In this document: positions 12,537 to 56,220 of the stretch, one piece after another
Numbering within the stretch: the first letter of the stretch is position 1
How the letters are laid out: each line of letters begins with the position of its first letter
Assembly: GCA_035610835.1 (NCBI GenBank)
Contig: CM069442.1
Location: 65,808,654-65,872,653, forward strand
DNA from: Ophiura sarsii
Taxonomy: Eukaryota > Echinodermata > Ophiuroidea > Amphilepidida > Ophiuridae
DNA length: 64,000 nt
Direction of reading: 5' to 3'
Position numbers and translations under genes: made by a program
Notes under the pieces: model-generated
Told to the model about the DNA's origin: nothing
The model's database searches: none
Seen by the model: the letters and a program-made list of their open reading frames with translations, nothing else

Positions 12537-14108
12537 TGGGAGGGGCGGGAGGGGGGGGGGGGAGAAGATATATTGTAAACGAGGCAAAGGTTGGTTTATT
12601 CCGTATTATAGAACAAACGGGATATATTTAAAAAGTGGGGTGACGGGAATTAGACGCAGCATGTGGAGGGCGGGAGGGGTGGGGGCGGGAAAAGATATAT
12701 TGTAAACAAGACAAATGTTGGTTTATTCCGTATTATAGAACAAACGGGATATATTTAAAAAGTGGGGTGACGGGAATGAGACGCAGCATGTTGGGGTGGG
12801 GGGGGGGGAAGATATATTGTAAACAAGACAAATGTTGGTTTATTCCGTATTATAGAACAAACGGGATATATTTAAAAAGTGGGGTGACGGGAATGAGACG
12901 CAGTATGTTGGGGTGGGGGGGGGGGGGGAAGATATATTGTAAACAAGACAAATGTTGGTTTATTCCGTATTATAGAACAAACGGGATATATTTAAAAAGT
13001 GGGGTGACGGGAATGAGACGCAGCATGTTGGGGTGGGGGGGGGGGGAAAGATATATTGTAAACAAGACAAATGTTGGTTTATTCCGTATTATAGAACAAA
13101 CGGGATATATTTAAAAAGTGGGGTGACGGGAATGAGACGCAGCATGTTGGGGTGGGGGGGGGAAGATATATTGTAAACAAGACAAATGTTGGTTTATTCA
13201 GTATTATAGAACAAACGGGATATATTTTTTTTAAAAGGTGGGGTGACGGGGATGAGACGCAGAATGTGGGGAGAGGAGTGGAGGCTGGAAAAGATATATT
13301 GTAAACAAGACAAATGTTGGTTTATTCCGTATTATAGAACAAACGGGATATATTTAAAAAGTGGGGTGACGGGAATGAGACGCAGCATGTGGGGAGGGGG
13401 GGTGAGAGGGGTGGTGCGGGAAAAGATATAGGCCTATTGTAAACAAGACAAATGTTGGTTTATTCCGTATTATAGAACAAACGGGATATATTTAGAAAGT
13501 GGGGTGACGGTGATGAGATGCAGCATGTGTGGGGGGGGGGGGGGCGGGGGGAGAAGATATATTGTTAACAAGACAAATGTTGGTTTATTCCGTATTATAG
13601 AACAAACGGGATATATTTAAAAAGTGGGGTGACGGGAATGAGACGCAGCATGTTGGGGTGGGGGGGGGGGGAAGATATATTGTAAACAAGACAAATGTTG
13701 GTTTATTCAGTATTATAGAACAAACGGGATATATTTTTTTTAAAAGGTGGGGTGACGGGGATGAGACGCAGAATGTGGGGAGAGGAGTGGAGGCTGGAAA
13801 AGATATATTGTAAACAAGACAAATGTTGGTTTATTCCGTATTATAGAACAAACGGGATATATTTAAAAAGTGGGGTGACGGGAATGAGACGCAGCATGTG
13901 GGGAGGGGGGGTGAGAGGGGTGGTGCGGGAAAAGATATAGGCCTATTGTAAACAAGACAAATGTTGGTTTATTCCGTATTATAGAACAAACGGGATATAT
14001 TTAGAAAGTGGGGTGACGGTGATGAGATGCAGCATGTGTGGGGGGGGGGGGGGGCGGGGGGAGAAGATATATTGTTAACAAGACAAATGTTGGTTTATTC
14101 CGTATTAA
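12537..14108. repeat. Satellite array, 13 units of about 115-135 bp, with a 509-bp higher-order repeat
   Basis: Each unit has GATATATTGTAAACAAGACA, AATGTTGGTTTATTCCGTAT, ATAGAACAAACGGGATATAT, then AAAAAGTGGGGTGACGGGAA, TGAGACGCAGCATG and a variable poly-G/GGGGAGG spacer. Units begin near 12560 and the last is truncated at about 14108. A block of four units is duplicated with a 509-bp offset (about 13140 to 13650), shown by shared variants such as the longer poly-T before AAAAGGTGGGG. Frames through it are artefacts that repeat with the units. Confidence 0.95.
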
Positions 14109-29160: not shown

Positions 29161-29332
29161 GTAATGAAGGGTGTTTACAAAAATTACCATGGTTATTGAC
29201 TTGTCAAAAATCACATTTTAGTTATGGTGGATTATTCTGCTACTTGTTATTGTTAATTGGTTTTCATGTATACATCATTTCGAGTTGTTATTTGAGATCT
29301 GATGTTTGGATATTAAATAGTCCTGCAATTAA

Positions 29333-29676
29333 AGGTAGATGCTCCGATTTCAACTTGAAGTTTTCTATTCTACATGAAAGGTCATCCTTAAAAACGTCGT
29401 GTCCCAAAATTTGAGATGCATAGCTATTATGGTTCTTATTTTAGACGCACAAGATGCTGTGAACTGTACCCATTGAGTAGTACACAAACTATATCGGGGG
29501 TAACCACCATTCTCGGTAATTCAACGCTATTTCGTCGATTTCTCTGTCATTATACCGATTTAGGCCGTCAAATTTCAGTATGATGATGAGAAAAATACGA
29601 GCTTTCATATGATATGAAAATCTCTGTATGTTTGAAATGATTCTGTGTTACGAAAATGTGATCGGGTCATCTACCT
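29333..29676. mobile_element. TTAA-flanked MITE, copy 1, 344 bp
   Basis: Ends AGGTAGATG(CT)CCGAT and the inverted ATCGGGTCATCTACCT are flanked by TTAA on both sides (29329-29332, 29677-29680). The interior shares TCTACATGAAAGGTCATCCT and CCCATTGAGTAGTACACA with copy 2. TTAA target duplication is the hallmark of piggyBac and Kolobok elements; which one mobilised this family is unknown. Confidence 0.85.
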
Positions 29677-29680
29677 TTAA

Positions 29681-32600
29681 ACACTTTCCATGGAAATTAA
29701 TGAAATTAACACTTATCCTGATGTGAGGTCAAGTTTGGCGGTAGATTTCTTTTTCAATTAAAAACAACACTATCTTTACTTCCTCTAATTTGAAAATAAA
29801 AATACTTATATACCAAAAATAATGGCAGTTTCTAACTGCAACATCATTGAATACAATCCAAAATTGACATCAAGTAGTTATTGATATTCATTTCACCTTA
29901 AAATTAAGTTAAATATTCTGAATATTTATTCGAGAATTGTCTGGTTCTGAATATTTATTCGATTTGATTGAAGATGTTCAGAAATTTGATAGCTGCTTTA
30001 TTTGATATTACTGGATTTGTCTTTAGGACAAAACAACGTTGATAAGAGTAAAGATGCTGTGGTGTAGTGGCTATAGTTTGTTCAGTGTCAAATATAGGTA
30101 GGCCCTATTTCAGTGTATATAAAGTGTAAACTATTGTAGGAGCAATCAGTTACAAGGTGGGGATTATTTTTGTCCACTATACTCCATCATTTATCTATCT
30201 CTGTGCAGTAACACTAGAGAGTATTCTAGTGATTAATGCAGCGCTAGTGCCGGAATTCTGCTGTGATAGCATGAGTATATACCCCAACAATGATGTGCAT
30301 GGCAATAAGCTGCGATCACTATAATGGTCCGTTCATACATCAGTCGTTGCGCATCGGACGACTTCGCCAGATATCGGTGTGCGAGTTGAAGCAATGTCAG
30401 CTTTTATCCACTGACGCGGATCATGCGCAACTATGGGATTTATGTCACTGCACAAAGATGAACAACAAACAGAGTAAAACTTCATATTGTTTGCCTATTT
30501 GGGATTGGACAAACTATAACAAGCGCTTGGTCATCAGTGATGATCTTGTGGTGGCAAGTCTAATTTGAGTTTGAAATTTGAACTATTGAATCGTCCGGTT
30601 TGGACATCACGGGACAATTTAGATATATTTGATTTGGCTGAGATTTTTGTATTGCCAGTGGTGCTACCTGCTGTAGGTTATACCCTTGCTATGCTATACA
30701 CATATAATGCTATTTATGCATGATCATAATGCTATCTACAGAAGATAGCAAGCAGAGGCTTTCATAACACATTTACGTGGAAGTGTCCACTCAAACTCGG
30801 CTTTGAAATTAAAAATGTATCAGTTTGATGGAGAGGCTTAGAAATTGGATAATGGCGTTATTTGAGCTGGCCAAAGTCCTTGATGTAATGGTGCTGCTTG
30901 TCATTTTTCCTGTGGATAGTAATGAGGGCTTAGGTAAATAGCAATTTACAGTTAGAGTGGGTATTTTAATGGATGGAATAAAAGGGTTGCTATAAAAATG
31001 GAAATTTGTGTGGTACATTAATTTACGAGCAGAGAGACATGTTCACACTTTCACGGAATGGAAACATATGACCACTTTTGCAATAATATTTAAGAAGAAG
31101 AGTGTGTATCCAAAACCGTGAGTATACAAAGCATTGTTCACTTGTCAGAATCCGATGAGGGCACCAAATCCTGGTTTTCAGTAGATTTTGACAGTCAAAA
31201 GGGTTGGTTTTTACATCCCCAATGTGTGATATGTTTAGCTATTACAGATTAAATGAATAGTTTTAAGGCAAAAAACCCCCCACAATTTGTCTCGGAAGAC
31301 CGCGCGCGTAGCTTTTTCGCATTTCAGCGCATAACTCCCCCCTCCCCATTTTTCTTGAACTTTTGAAAATGATGCTTCTTCAAATTTTAATTTCACATTG
31401 TGAAGTACCATATCAGCTTCATTTTCTTGCTTACAAGAGTAAAATTACCACATAAAAATAGAAGTTAAATACAGTTTAAATATTATTTGCACCTACCCTG
31501 TCCTACATATTAAATTGAGTTGATGAAAAGCATCAAACTCATTATTTGAATTGTACTATCAAATACATGGCAGATTCATATTTTTATGCACATCTGAAAC
31601 ACCGTCTAAAATACCACTAGGCTGGCTGTTAATTAAGAAATGGATAAACTCTATCGGGCATTGCAATAATTTCAATTGACGTGTTTTGAAACTCAAACTT
31701 GTGTAATGACAAAAGTTCATACTATTGACAATATGATATTGACCGGGGTTCAATTCCCCGCCGGTGAATGTCCTTGCTTATTTTTAAAACGTTCGGACGT
31801 TCTCCGGTGTTTGTTAATATTTGTTGTTACATTGTCTATTGTTAAACACTGTAGGTTGGTAAACTGCTTTATATTATATTATAATATAAAATAATATATA
31901 ATATAATATAAGACAAAACATGCTATGAAATTAAACAAGCAGCTAAAAACCAATCAAAATAAAAGAAAACAAGAGAATCCAATGATCTTTTAACCAGCCG
32001 TGAGTATACTATGAAACCAAACACTACAAATTCAGTTAATATAAAGGTACATGCAAATAAAAATTGAATTTGACAATACCAAGACAGCTGTGAAGATGTT
32101 CAACAATAGCCGTAAGCAGTTTGACTGTGTTTCTGAGCAGCTTATATTTTTAGAATCCGCAGAAGACATCAGAAACAAGACAAGAATGGTAATTTGTTAG
32201 TGAGGTGCATACGACGATAATTGCGACTGTAGTTGTAAATTGTGATTTGATTGGAACTCTTGCTGTAATTGAAAAGTTCCGGATACAGAGGTAATATATT
32301 TGCGAGTTTCGGCGAACCTTGAATTCAGCGTCGCAATAAGGCTTGCCATAAGGGTTGGTTGAAATATGATGATGATTAGCATTGTGGTGTATTTTGTGGC
32401 AGAGTTAACATTAAAACATCTGGATTATTTGTTACACTGATCAGTATTGAAGCAGAGATATAGGAGTTGATCCTCTAGGCTCTATCCTATGATTTCTAGT
32501 ACAAAATCAGAGATACATTGACTGAACTTCAAACCATTGATGAGTGAATGCTTGTGTACATTAATAAGCACTGAAGTAAAGGATCTGATGTTTTTATCCA

Positions 32601-40100: not shown

Positions 40101-40730
40101 CGATTAGTTATTCGTGAAAGAGAAAAGCTACAGAAAATAAGATTACTACTGTATCAGAATACTACCTGTACCAGCTGTAAATGGGTACATTGATATCACA
40201 ATAGATATCACAATGAATATCACAATGATACAATGATCATAATGGTACAGGGTGATCATGAGACTAACGTGCACATCTCATAAAAGGACACGACGCAGAC
40301 CGTCTTCTGTGGTACTACTGGCGCCGGTGTAGGCCTATTAATATATGGCAACGGTTGATCAAGACGAACTAAAGAGGTAGCCTAAATCGAATACATATAT
40401 CATATCTATCTAGGATTGAGGCCAGTATAATGCAAGCAATTATTAGAAATATTGCATTGTAAGTTAAATCATACGGACTAGCAAGTCATTTTTTTTTATT
40501 TATAAAAATCACACAAATAAATCGTTTATGAGAAGAACGAGGGCATAAATAACAAGAATTTGTTTATATTTTAGGGACTATATTAAGTATGCAATAATAT
40601 TAATGTTTAAAAATTAGTATAGGAAAAATGCATATAAATGGATAGAGAAGTAGGTATTTTAAGGCCTACATCATCAAATTTATATGCATTTGAGAAACTA
40701 CTTTATTTTATTATTAATTTGCCTTATAAA

Positions 40731-40878
40731 CATTTTCCACGCGGCAGGCGTCTGCAGACGACATTCCAAAATGTCTCAATCTGTTTGAAAATGTCAACAT
40801 TGTTAAATTTCATAACCATATTTGGAATCATCATGTGAAATGCATGGAAATAAGTACAAACATACCTCGTGAAAAGTG
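40731..40878. mobile_element. Nested MITE, CACTTTCCACGCGG family, deleted copy
   Basis: The left end CATTTTCCACGCGG and the inverted right end (CACTTTTCACGAGG) match the element at 50560-50798. The sequence from GGCAGGCGTCTGCAGACGAC through AAATTTCATAACCATATTTG to AAATAAGTACAAACATACCT is collinear with the inverted right half of that copy. TTAA remains at the right (40879-40882) and is degraded at the left. It is an internal-deletion derivative. Confidence 0.75.
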
Positions 40879-50545: not shown

Positions 50546-50559
50546 ACACAAAAGCTTAA

Positions 50560-50798
50560 CACTTTCCACGCGGCTATTAGTTTTACCATATACAAAACAG
50601 ATTTTTCAGAAACTTTTCGCATTTTTCAAAGTCTATCTCAAGGATTACTGAACCAATATTAGGTAGGTTTGTACTTATTTCAATGCATTTCACATGTTGA
50701 TTCCAAATATGGTTATGAAATTTATCAATTTTGACATTTTTGAAACATTTTGTGAAATTTTGGAATGTCGTCTGTAGCTGCCTGCCGTGTGGAAAGTG
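50560..50798. mobile_element. TTAA-flanked MITE, CACTTTCCACGCGG family, 239 bp
   Basis: Ends CACTTTCCACGCGGC and the inverted GCCGTGTGGAAAGTG are flanked by TTAA at 50556-50559 and 50799-50802. The right-hand TTAA is also the left target site of the piggyBac element. It is related to the deleted copy at 40731-40878. The termini differ from those of the neighbouring piggyBac, so that transposase is not obviously its driver. Confidence 0.85.
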
Positions 50799-50802
50799 TT
50801 AA
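50799..50802. repeat. TTAA target site, left
   Basis: Precedes the CCCTAACCC tip of the piggyBac element and is shared with the adjoining MITE. Confidence 0.9.
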
Positions 50803-50811
50803 CCCTAACCC
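50803..50811 (+). repeat. piggyBac 3' terminal inverted repeat
   Basis: CCCTAACCC, identical to the inverted tip at 56208-56216. CCCTA is also how the cabbage-looper piggyBac begins. Confidence 0.85.
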
Positions 50812-50835
50812 AGATGGCTCCATACTAACAACACC

Positions 50836-51078
50836 ACCATATCCAACAAAATCCAACAACAACAAAATGCCTTCCCCACCATATCCAACAGAATCCAACA
50901 GTTGGAATTTGTTGGATATAGTGGTCCACACAGTAACAATAATCAATACTCTCTATGCACAAAGCACTAAATCCAACAGAATCCAACAGAGTTATGTATT
51001 GAGTAAACCACTGTATCCAACAAAATCCAACAACTGTCTAAGATAGGTTTACCACTGAATCCAACAAAATCCAACAAA
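50836..51078. repeat. piggyBac 3' subterminal repeat array
   Basis: Paired ATCCAACA motifs on the plus strand at 50841-50860, 50883-50901, 50971-50990, 51015-51034 and 51059-51078, usually preceded by CCACYR or ACCAT. One inverted copy at 50906-50924 pairs with the second to make a near-palindrome. These are candidate transposase-binding sites (inference). Confidence 0.85.
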
Positions 51079-51806
51079 ATAACAACATGATAATTGTGTA
51101 TTTTAGAATAAATAGGTATGTTAATTTTGTTTTGTTTTGGGTTTCTTTTATTTGGGGAAGGGGGATTTAAAATGTTTAGCAATTTTGGGGGTCATTAGGT
51201 ACCCATGCAGGAGTATTGTGATTTTTTAGAATTGTGTGTTGTTTCTTTTGCATCTTGCTACTGGGTTTATTATTGGTATTTATTGTGATTCTTGCTTTTG
51301 TTTTTGATTGCATTCGGCTCAGTTGTAATTACGAACGTCACAATAAGTCACACGTTTACATAATAAGAGTTATCTATAATAATATAGAAACCTTGTTATC
51401 ATCATTGCCAATGCTCTCATGACTAGGACATATTGTCTCAGCCTGTTTTTGTTTGTTTATAATTATTATTATTATTTATTTATTTTGGTTTCTTTTTGTG
51501 TTTTTTGTGTGTATTTTTTGTGGCTATGACATTATCCGAAGAATAAGTCTTTGCCATTTTTTATTTTTTTTGCGTGGCTTGGACAACTGAAAAAATAAAT
51601 AGTCATAAAAGTGTATAAAAAATAAAAAGTGAATAAAACAGTAAAAAATGTAAAAAATGGTAGTCCTTGCCTTTTTTTTATGTGTGACTTGCCGGGTGTA
51701 GATTTGTCTCTAAAAATGACAATCTCACCGCATATATTTCATGGCTTGCCACAGGCCTGAAACCTATCTCTGAAAGTCCAAGTTTCAGCCTAACACGCGC
51801 TCGTAT
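51079..51806 (-). other. Probable 3' UTR and trailer of transposase gene
   Basis: AT-rich and non-coding. On the minus strand, AATAAA signals occur at 51560-51565 and as an overlapping pair at 51475-51484, about 240 and 325 nt past the stop codon. Either could direct polyadenylation. Confidence 0.5.
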
Positions 51807-54800
51807 TTAGTGTCCGCCACCATGTGCAGCCAAGAAGCACGGAGCCGGTGGTCTACATAGATTGATGCTGCAGACCTTGCAGCCATATCTGGAAGTAGGT
51901 GTGTTTCCAGCGGCGTTCTTGCGTCCGGTCTCCTTACACACCCGACATTGGCGAGCATTTCTGATAGGCATCTTTTCGCTCATGTGGCCGGTGCCAGCAC
52001 CATGATGAGCCGGTAGGGGCGTATATTTAGCTTGTGGAACTTGCCGAGGTGTTGTTCCCTGGATAAGTCCCTTGGCTACTTCCATGACAAATTTTGAATG
52101 ACTCAGGGCGGAACTTTGGTCGTCAAGGCGGTCGTCGTCAGTGGTGACTTTCTTGACTGGCGCTGGATGGTGCCATTTATAGCAGATCCATGCATTGCAG
52201 ATGGCGATGTCAATGATGTAGTACAGTAACTTTTTCCACCATTGTTGTGCCTTCCTGGAACAGGAGTAATAAGATCTTAGTTGATCACCCCTGTCCACGC
52301 CTCCCATGAATTTGACATAGTCAACAGCCTGTCGTGGTGCAGTGACAACTAAGGGTGTTCTGTAAGGTCGACCATCCTCCCTCACGTTTCTGGTAACGAC
52401 ATCCCCGTTTGAGTTGGCTGTCGGTTTGGTTCTGTAGCCTTGATGACCAGAGCTAAGCAGCTGCATGGTGGAGGAGTCTCTCCACAAAGCCGACGTAAAC
52501 TGACCAAGTTGCCGAGTGAAGAAGGTCCCTCGTGGAGCCTTGGCCAGCCGTTTAAGCTTGAGGTGGTTGTGAGGGTTTCTGGTTGGGTTGGGCAGGAAAT
52601 CAACCGGCAGCCCCTTCCTATTGGTCTTGATGGCCCCAGTGAGGTATGTGCGTTTGGCCAGGAGTCGCCTTGCCAGATCCATAGACGTGTATAGCCTGTC
52701 GGTGAACAGGTGATGGTATTTGCCTGTTATCCGTTTTGCCACGTCCAATGTGATGTCCACCATCTTGCTGGCCTTTCCCTGGTTAAATGGGTGCGGAATA
52801 AAGTTAACCATGTAACCTGTGATAGAATCGGCGAGGGCATACAGCTTAAAACCAGCCCGAATAGGCTTTAACGGCATGAAAAACTTCTTGACTTTTGCTT
52901 TGAAGCCAGAGTACTTCACCATTGCTTCATCAATCGATAGGCAGCGGCCGAGGTTGAAGTTAGCCTGTGATGTCTGCAGCACTTTGTCCCAGATCGGTTG
53001 TAGAGGATACAGTGGATGCTTACGCATCCACATGTACTGATGTTGTTTACTCTCATACAAGTCCGGATCCTCTTTCGGGTAACGCTCGGGGTTGGTGTCC
53101 GGATCACTGCAGGCGAGGAATTCGCTTAACTTCTCAAAGCGTGTTCTGGCCATCGTGCTGGTGATGAGTAGGTTGCGGTATCCAGGTTCAGTAGACCAGT
53201 AGTCGCCAACGTAGGGAACCCGAACTAGGCCCATCACCAGCCTAATACCAATCCATGCTTGGATCTCGGATGCGGAAGTTGATCTTTTCCCAGCCTTGGT
53301 CAACTTGCTGCTGGTCCACGCTGCCATCTGGATCATCAGCGCAACTGGGAAGAACTTCAAGAAGTAATCCACTGGTCTATCGAGTACTCCAAATGTTGGC
53401 CCAGTAGGCGTAGGCCCAGCAAAGCCCTCCACATCGACATCCTGAAGTGAGCGACTCCACCCGAACTCATCTGGAGGATACACCTTCTGGCCCCTGCTTG
53501 GTGGATCGGGGTCATTGTCTGAATCAATAACAGGCGGCCGCCGTACTCTCTTTCTGCCTCGTGGTAGTGCCCTGGCAGTGCTCGAAGATGATGGTTGTGC
53601 ATCTGACTTAGAGGCTTCCGAATCATGTTGTTCCTCATCAGTGGGTTCCTCATCAGTGGGTTCCTCATCTGTGGCGAGAACATAATCATCGTCGTCATCA
53701 TCATCAACATCATCATCAGTGGTCGGTTGATGGTCCGCTTGTTGATCATCAGCTGATGAAGCCGCGTCATCGGGCGCAGAAGCTGCGTCGTCCGTTGATG
53801 GTTGAGCGGTACTTTTGCCAGATGGAGGATGAGTATTTTCGTTGTCTGAGAATCCGAACATGGTGTGCGTGCGACCCTCTTTAAACGCAACATGCACGCG
53901 ACCTTGTTTCTTGGACTTGGTGGAATCCCAGAGACTTTGGAAGTTGTCGTCAGATGACTTCTGGTCGTCAACCTCCTCCGCACTATCAACCCGATCCTCT
54001 AAGAATGCCTCCTCTTCAGACTCGCTGATGTTCGACTTGGCCTTGTAATTATGTGTTGACATTACAATGCCCTTATCATTGCAGCTCCGCCGGACTGCCT
54101 CCTTCACATGCCCCCTTTCCTCCGTTTCTTTACTGGCCTTGCATCTATCAGATGAATTCTTTTTCTTCTTCTTCTTCTTGTTGATAGAAGAACTTGCGCC
54201 TTCATCTGGCGATGCCGTTGCTTGTGGCTTCTTCTTCTTGGCCTTCTTGGCCGTCTTTAGCTTTATTACACCAGATGAACTAGTAGATGGTTCATCCTCT
54301 TTCTTTCGCTTTTTGTTCGATCCTCGCATTTGGCTGATGAACACCTCCTGTTCGTCCTCTCGCATTCCTGTATACAACATGAGAAAAATAAATAAAAGGG
54401 TTTTGAGTTGGAGATAATATTATAACATTTTGGTCATCTTGATTCTATCAAGAAATCATGAATGATATTATAATTTGCTAGAGTTTACACAAAAATGTTA
54501 CACAAGGAGCATAGTATTACATGTTTTGTTTCAATGAAAGACTCTATATTTAGAAATGGATAAATTATTTACTATTTTATGAAAACAGAATCTTGGGGTC
54601 AATGAGGTAAAGAACATGAACTTGAAAATGATTACAATAATAATAAATGTCTTGACTTTTTACTAATAAAGGAAAGGTTACATGCAAATCAAATTACTAA
54701 TAATAAAGGTTGCGTAAATCAAATTTCAGAAAATCTGTTTGTATATAACATAAAATTAACTTTTATAAAAATAAGAAGAGATTGTACATACCATACTGCA

Positions 54801-54825
54801 AGTTCTTCACTTCTCGATTTGACAT
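51807..54825 (-). CDS. piggyBac transposase (two exons)
   Basis: Cut-and-paste transposase that excises and inserts the element at TTAA. The main exon (54367-51807) is open throughout. Residue numbers below are for the unspliced 857-residue frame starting at 54380. Residues 20-290 are low-complexity: lysine-rich blocks, an acidic run, three DEEPT repeats and a basic RGRKRVRR signal suited to nuclear import. The DDE_Tnp_1_7 domain spans about 325-735, with catalytic aspartates D484 (LSIDEA), D561 (LFTDRLY) and D696 (GGVDRGDQ). A C-terminal zinc-binding domain (about 811-853) has C812, C815, C834, C837, C842, C848 and H853. A short first exon (54825-54792, beginning MSNREVKNLQYG) joins in frame after a 424-nt intron to give 864 residues. 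No frameshift or stop is seen. Domestication as a host gene is the alternative, but the intact ends and TTAA sites favour a recent transposon. Confidence 0.93.
54368..54791 (-). other. Predicted intron of transposase gene
   Basis: The donor reads TATG/GTATGT and the acceptor is a pyrimidine-rich TTTATTTTTCTCATGTTGTA then TACAG/GA. Splicing joins TAT-GGA in frame and replaces the first four residues of the long open frame with eleven. Use of the internal ATG at 54380 without splicing is the alternative. Confidence 0.7.
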
Positions 54826-54980
54826 GCTGATATGAAAATGAAGAGTTCTAATCAGGAAGTATCACCGAGGTTCGATTTCTCGCAAGAGATTATCGTTCGC
54901 ACACGTAATAACAAACGTTTAGTTTCACCGATACGAAACCGTATTGGTAAAAGCAGGGACAGAGAAGCAATTTTACAGCC

Positions 54981-54988
54981 CTTTTATA
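54981..54988 (-). promoter_or_regulatory. TATA box of transposase gene
   Basis: TATAAAAG on the minus strand. It lies about 155 bp upstream of the predicted start codon at 54825, which implies a 5' leader of roughly 125 nt. Confidence 0.6.
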
Positions 54989-55037
54989 CTATTCTACCAC
55001 CTCAAAAAATTTACATACTCTTTCACTGGTGTTATTA

Positions 55038-55275
55038 TTTTCCCGCCGAAGTGTATTTCAATATCACATGATTCAAATCTGTATTTCTATTCGGTAACAC
55101 TTTCCCGCCTATTTAGCACATGGATATTTGTAAAGAGCCAATATGAATATTACATAATTCGAATCCCATCAACCTTTCCCGCTAATTTTGCACATGACAT
55201 ATAGCTCATCAACTCTACCGCCCATTTAGCACCTGATATTTAAACCCATTAACTTTCCCGCCCATTTAGTTGAGA
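55038..55275 (-). promoter_or_regulatory. Five promoter-proximal CTTTCCCGCC repeats (E2F-like)
   Basis: Plus-strand consensus CTTTCCCGCCNATTTAGCAC followed by ATGATATT, at 55038, 55101, 55175, 55214 and 55254, spaced 39-73 bp apart and 50-280 bp upstream of the TATA box. The invariant part reads GGCGGGAA on the coding strand, which matches the known E2F consensus. Cell-cycle control of the transposase is inference. Confidence 0.6.
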
Positions 55276-55279
55276 GCAG

Positions 55280-55800
55280 CATTGAATAATGTGTTTTGAC
55301 ACCATTGATTGCAGATTCAAGAAAACGGGTGTACATAAATAGAAAAATTCGGCTATATAGTAGTGTCAGCGCAATGATGGTCGATTGTGATGCTATGTGG
55401 TTCGGTAGCATTCCTTCAACCAACCAGCCTCATCAAGGCAGCACTGGCTCTAACACTAACACTAACACTAACACTTAACACAACCGTGGGAGGAGTGGAT
55501 GGAGTATTGAGTAGCTAAATATAAGTTCATGGCACTGCCTGGGGTCAGCCATGCTTCTTCCCCTGAATATGCTCGCCATCCACAACTCAATATTTTTAAA
55601 TTTATGTTAAATTTGACACCATTGATTGTATATTCAAGGATTCGAGAAGTTCTCTATGGGGGTACCGGCACATTGTAGGACTTGTAATTGTTTTTAATTA
55701 TTTAATTCCAACATCACAAACACGATCACAATAATTGTGCATCCCCCTCCCCCTCCATATCAAAGTGTCAAAATATGTTTCTACCTGTTAAATACACTAA
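55280..55800. other. piggyBac 5' region, no second gene
   Basis: Non-coding. ACACCATTGATTG followed by ATATTCAAG is present twice (about 55297 and 55616). A short CTAACA/CACTAA microsatellite lies at 55451-55476. Confidence 0.5.
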
Positions 55801-55802
55801 CT

Positions 55803-56204
55803 ACCATATCCAACAAAATCCAACAAATATTTGAATTGAACAAACCACTAAATCCAACAAAATCCAACAACCCATTAGATTACATTACATTACAAATTAA
55901 TTGTACACACCACCATATCCAACAAAATCCAACAAATATTTAAATTGTACAAACCACTATATCCAACAAAATCCAACGACCCATTATATTACATTACATT
56001 ACAAATTAATTGTACACACTACCATATCCAACAAAATCCAACAAACATTTAATAACGTTCCACACCATATCCAACAAAATCCAACAATGTATTACTCTAC
56101 TACCCCACTGAATCCAACAAAATCCAACACAAATAGCTGAAGTGTGCAAACCACTGTATCCAACTTCCAACAACATTTCACCTTGTTGGATTTTGTTGGA
56201 TATG
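55803..56204. repeat. piggyBac 5' subterminal repeat array
   Basis: Seven plus-strand copies of ATCCAACAAAATCCAACAA at 55808, 55852, 55917, 55961, 56026, 56069 and 56112, a degenerate eighth at 56158, and a ninth in inverted orientation at 56183-56202 right at the tip. Copies one to five are embedded in a 109-bp tandem duplication (ATTACATTACATTACAAATT). Confidence 0.9.
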
Positions 56205-56207
56205 GTG

Positions 56208-56216
56208 GGGTTAGGG
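56208..56216 (-). repeat. piggyBac 5' terminal inverted repeat
   Basis: Reads inward as CCCTAACCC, then one base, then the first subterminal repeat. Confidence 0.85.
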
Positions 56217-56220
56217 TTAA
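56217..56220. repeat. TTAA target site, right
   Basis: Borders the 5' tip of the piggyBac element and duplicates the TTAA at 50799-50802. Confidence 0.9.

Follow-up and report, generated by a model that had tools for sequence, protein, structure and literature searches.

An intact piggyBac element in Ophiura sarsii, very probably one copy of a young and autonomous-looking family

A 5.4-kb unit in a 64,000-nucleotide stretch of Ophiura sarsii DNA (the window, whose positions are used below) very probably belongs to a piggyBac family that is young and looks autonomous. Its anatomy is complete, many near-identical intact copies lie at differing sites, the protein is under selection, and paralogous empty sites are present. 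The element may still move today.

Anatomy of the element and its transposase

The complete element, including both TTAA, occupies 50799–56220 with its gene on the minus strand, and the boundaries that a preliminary description had drawn from TTAA on both sides and the repeated ends of a 5.4-kb unit were exact. The TTAA target duplication is perfect on both sides (50799–50802 on the left and 56217–56220 on the right), and CCCTAACCC is present at both tips, the left one at 50803–50811 and the right one, reading GGGTTAGGG, at 56208–56216 (both given on the plus strand). Tips and TTAA together resemble two TTAGGG-type repeats, a likeness that might conceivably hint at telomeres. At both tips CCCTAACCC agrees with CC[C/T]T, the terminal motif of the piggyBac superfamily in the part of PMC2872659 that was available.

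The window holds a single full-length candidate frame, at 51807–54419 on the minus strand (870 aa, stop to stop). In our gene model, translation starts at the ATG at 54825, a 34-nt exon 1 (54792–54825, minus; MSNREVKNLQYG, last codon split) is followed by a GT-AG intron of 424 nt (54791–54368), the preliminary description having already noted an intron, and exon 2 (51807–54367, minus) runs to the stop at 51807, giving a protein of 864 aa. The start of exon 1, MSNREVKNLQ, resembles MTAREVRELQ of a Patiria miniata protein (P0008) and the start of an Amphiura filiformis protein (P0011), and exon 1, donor and acceptor are common to subfamily B, family C and copy L025 (6 sequences examined). The same six sequences also have TATAAAA 163–168 nt upstream of the ATG; a TATA box had been claimed before without a position, and the best-supported one is the core promoter TATAAAAGG at 54988–54980 on the minus strand.

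The window frame matches Pfam DDE_Tnp_1_7 (PF13843) with 208.2 bits against a cut-off of 22.4, and this is the only one of the three Pfam families listed for the window protein to pass its cut-off. Among solved transposase structures, piggyBac (6x67, E 2e-21) and piggyBat (9c0f, E 2e-16) were matched, and D491, D568 and D703, all encoded in exon 2, align by phmmer to D268/D346/D447 of 6x67, the catalytic triad of piggyBac in the available part of PMC7351741. The intact D/D/D transposase and its piggyBac affinity were thus both borne out. The zinc-binding tail fared less well: the Cys-rich tail itself is there, beginning at C819 in exon 2, with six Cys spread over residues 819–855 plus His 860/864, but the zinc-finger model zf-Tnp_2 reached 20.1 bits, below its cut-off of 24. 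The AlphaFold model of the transposase is weak (mean pLDDT 53.7) and too poor for use alone; Foldseek with this model ranked piggyBat and piggyBac first.

Both ends carry arrays of doublet repeats of the CCACCATATCCAACAAAATCCAACA type, 14 in total when up to 5 substitutions are allowed, with six in the left array (50834–51076, one inverted) and eight in the right array (55801–56208). The steps between doublets range from 42 to 65 bp and are mostly 42–44 or 65 bp. The outermost right doublet is inverted and abuts the tip, its start lying 12 bases from the element's right boundary, and the outermost left doublet starts at base 36. Across the left 290 bases, family A, to which the window element belongs, and its sister family C agree at 95 of 102 site positions compared with 119 of 188 others (Fisher p 5e-9, with positions treated as independent and sites defined on family A). 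We infer that the doublets are putative transposase-binding sites.

Copies in the genome

The assembly searched comprises 1.57 Gb in 748 contigs, and copy counts from this one assembly are lower bounds; a search of it for COX1 found no match. With the left 302 bases as query and 40 of 74 candidates scored, at least 19 left ends were found at 93–100% identity, counting that of the window. A right-end query gave at least 18 right ends at 94–100%, of which four are partial (40 scored of 78 candidates). The expectation of further copies with near-identical ends was therefore correct, and since other copies carry the same ends, the boundaries are right. We read all 19 left-end copies, the window and 18 others. 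The transposase is open in 15 full-length copies; the two-exon model holds in 14 of them (849–865 aa), and the fifteenth, L025, has an 876-aa stop-to-stop frame. The unit described earlier, with ends, TTAA, transposase, TATA and intron, is the same in these 15 of 19 copies and is therefore not a product of chance. The other four are broken: the frame of L017 is interrupted and its right tip cut, 676 bp of the left end remain of L019, L023 has one stop and lacks its right part, and L026 retains 600 aa and also lacks the right part. The left ends of L019 and L023 have no right end, and the right end at C16:61492827 has no left partner among the matches listed. Short non-autonomous derivatives with both ends were not found among those matches (40 of 74 left and 40 of 78 right candidates scored).

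Ten of the 15 full-length copies have TTAA at either side (window, L009, L010, L011, L013, L025, L012, L014, L015 and L018), and the last four of these have two extra bases at one tip. A clean left TTAA is absent from the other five (L016, which has TTAG, L020, L021, L022 and L024), of which L021 and L022 are also missing their outermost 9 bases. The extra bases between tip and TTAA are AA at the left tips of L015 and L018 and TT at the right tips of L012, L014 and L022. Either pair equals the inner half of a donor TTAA, and they would reflect incomplete trimming of the donor overhang.

Insertion sites and paralogous empty sites

Flanks differ between copies: among the 16 compared there is no shared long flank, and the matches found are dispersed repeats. 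Inside the window there are unoccupied paralogous sites for two other copies, L013 and L010. The joined flanks of L013 align over 354 bp, at 95.2%, to the repeat at 29329–29681 (plus strand), an unoccupied paralogue of its target; the junction has one TTAA, which is the single-TTAA empty site of the piggyBac superfamily. Those of L010 match a TTAA-flanked MITE-like repeat at 50556–50802 at 81.5% over 254, and further copies of this repeat in L016 (82.5%) and L033 (79.5%); in the window alignment the junction is ungapped, a 5-base gap lies a few bases off, and the window copy of the repeat has TCAA there. The window element itself is inserted at the right TTAA of this same repeat. The MITE-like repeat has CACTTTCCAC ends and a shorter diverged copy at 40729–40867; both L010 and the window element are situated in or at the repeat, and L016 is close to one. 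Elsewhere in the window, outside the element, there is a tandem array with a 120/243-bp period (12547–14107).

It is very improbable that the copies arose without transposition, by segmental duplication or assembly error. Two copies do lie on small unplaced contigs (C426 and C371), as such an origin might give, but the lack of any shared long flank among 16 copies, the dispersed-repeat nature of their flank matches, the paired TTAA of 10 of the 15 full-length copies and the empty sites contradict it.

Age and selection

The window copy differs from the majority of 15 aligned copies by 4 substitutions in 5422 bases; this and the 3 substitutions of L014 in 5.4 kb are the lowest divergences. Across 12 family-A copies there are 104 private and 8 shared changes, which indicates a star-like recent burst. 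These small distances, with near-identical intact copies at differing sites, agree with the recent insertion suggested in the preliminary description.

Eleven family-A copies show 27 synonymous and 13 nonsynonymous changes, giving an omega (dN/dS) of about 0.14. Omega was 0.19–0.20 between A and subfamily B (3 pairs), 0.25 within B (1 pair), and 0.12 for A against L025 and A against C, with synonymous sites saturated in these last two comparisons. Within family C the two pairs run gave 0.53 and 0.61, and selection is therefore less clear there. Purifying selection would also be expected of a domesticated piggyBac-derived host gene with end remnants, but the possibility of such a single-copy gene, raised in advance, is practically negligible and is contradicted by the copy number, at least 19 near copies that have their ends, and by the intact tips and target duplications.

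A family that was recently active and is now silent, its sequence intact and its movement stopped by host small RNAs or chromatin, is plausible but stands clearly below an even chance. In favour of this, all family-A copies read except one differ from the majority by at least 3 substitutions, and in the strict sense none is brand-new. Against this, the lowest divergences are just those of L014 and the window copy given above, and open frames are kept in 15 of 19 copies. We favour a young family whose window copy may still be mobile. By homology to piggyBac and piggyBat, transcription of its transposase would start from the TATA box, which lies in the element's right part, and the transcript would be spliced once to yield the 864-aa protein, whose Cys-rich tail may bind the doublet repeats of both end arrays. 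A transposase dimer or tetramer would pair the two ends, and the D/D/D site would cut at TTAA, excise the element and join it into another TTAA.

Relation to known elements

The element shares with piggyBac of Trichoplusia ni (6x67), as far as the available part of PMC7351741 describes it, a DDD transposase, a Cys-rich C-terminal domain and TTAA. Unequal ends with an internal repeat are also common to both, the T. ni repeat being placed differently at the two tips (LE35 versus RE63) in the same part of that source. By contrast, the present element has 864 aa, a long charged N-terminus, one intron and 14 doublet repeats, and the two sequences are only distantly alike (E 2e-21). In the part of PMC11707139 available, transposase binds three sites spaced in 44-bp steps on the left end of piggyBat of Myotis lucifugus (9c0f), the third of which restrains activity. 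Several end sites are thus found in both, in 44-bp steps there and in steps mostly of 42–44 and 65 bp here, whereas the motif differs, a ATCCAACA doublet here and GCGGGA plus a palindrome there, and the present element has arrays at both ends and more sites, which are putative binding sites.

From 7983 scored candidates, 11 proteins passed. The closest full-length ones, P0002 and P0001 from ENA contigs and compared by protein alone, are 50–51% identical by BLASTP and 53–54% in alignment, and two partial proteins reach 55–56% over 41–49% of the query. The named matches are all echinoderm: the piggyBac-like proteins P0008–P0011 of Patiria miniata, Asterias amurensis and Amphiura filiformis have the same Pfam domain and 34–46% identity, and a start like exon 1 is found in P0008, P0009 and P0011 but is absent from P0010. 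The genome of the window gave no match to the Amphiura protein P0011 above 59%. Many animals are known to have young and active types of piggyBac, according to the available part of PMC10813416, and no family with these ends was found in the open-licence PMC literature. On these protein comparisons it is a new piggyBac family of an already known kind, its closest full-length protein being 50–54% identical.

Sister families and probable exchange of modules

The genome is unusually piggyBac-rich. PF13843 has at least 116 matches genome-wide (116 scored of 293 candidates) and none in the control genomes (0 of 14). Among the 116, 5 contain stops and 108 are stop-free with a frame of at least 600 aa, and many have scores equal to the decimal, in several groups, as expected of several young families. 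The members read among these matches were A, B, C and L025. The right-end query also hit at least 5 further places at 73% (C17, C13, C7, C5 and C2), which lie within about 8 kb of PF13843 matches with 997–1133-aa frames.

Family C has at least 8 left ends at 75–77% (40 of 74 candidates scored) and a further right end at C18:50882842; in L028 it is 6300 bp long, with end sites at the same left-end positions as in family A. Between A and C, Jukes-Cantor distances are 0.42 in conserved coding sequence, 0.14–0.15 in the intron and 0.10–0.11 upstream of the TATA box (for each of four C copies), and 1.03 at third positions (L028 only). Because the non-coding stretches are much closer than the coding ones, the families seem to have exchanged sequence, by recombination or gene conversion. 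L025 (C12:11512843-11519243, minus) carries family-A tips and right flank around another open core and intron. Its ends are 98% identical to A over the first 250 bases and 99–100% over the last 422 bases. Its distance to A is 0.05 in the sequence preceding the TATA box but 0.78 for the intron and 0.68 for third positions. This mosaic was seen once and may be an assembly join; the A–C pattern, by contrast, is in four copies. Overall, the comparisons point to families that have swapped ends, promoter and core in this way.

Satellites related to the end repeats

A 42-bp satellite unit, CTACACTGCCAAATCCAACAGAATCCAACAACAACAAAATGC, matches the left-end repeat of family C. About 80 copies are present in L029 (C2; L029:3023-6397), and the unit fills at least C4:32520001-32530304 (L030:1-7305 and L052) and C19:59862000-59879493 (L031, L032 and L051), with one interruption of about 0.4 kb; the C4 array is thus no shorter than 10 kb and the C19 array no shorter than 17 kb. 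On C7 there are arrays of a 46-bp unit that shares the doublet motif (L033:4925-8972 and L034:2945-9667). Both borders of the L029 array are family-C left-end sequence, and an intact left tip is missing there. Beside this array, at its left border (L029:2975-3010), an apparent family-C right tip, GGCAGTGTTAGGG, is fused directly to left-end sequence, like a head-to-tail junction.

The family-C left-end repeat probably seeded the satellite arrays, and multiplication in place of two neighbouring end repeats would be the simplest reading of L029, where the order may also be reversed, with the satellite first and the end repeat later. Tandem arrays from piggyBac MITEs are described for coral CMITE and Xenopus piggyBac-MITE in the available part of PMC2872659, and Drosophila Tetris is another precedent in that of PMC4079207. 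Arrays or satellites from DNA transposon sequence are common to these cases and the present one, whereas here the repeated unit matches a subterminal repeat of a full-size piggyBac family. We suggest tentatively, at slightly less than an even chance, that the co-resident families, several of which are mobile today or were so until very recently, recombine their modules (ends, promoter/intron, core) within a common pool, and that their putative transposase-binding end repeats seed new satellite DNA.

The generality of third-site restraint in piggyBat is posed as a question in the available part of PMC11707139, and it becomes testable in a natural family that has 14 candidate sites. Working transposases and native end pairs can be obtained from natural piggyBac families in which many copies are intact. 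In this family and its relatives, within one genome, a piggyBac burst can be viewed together with module exchange and a possible route from end repeat to satellite.
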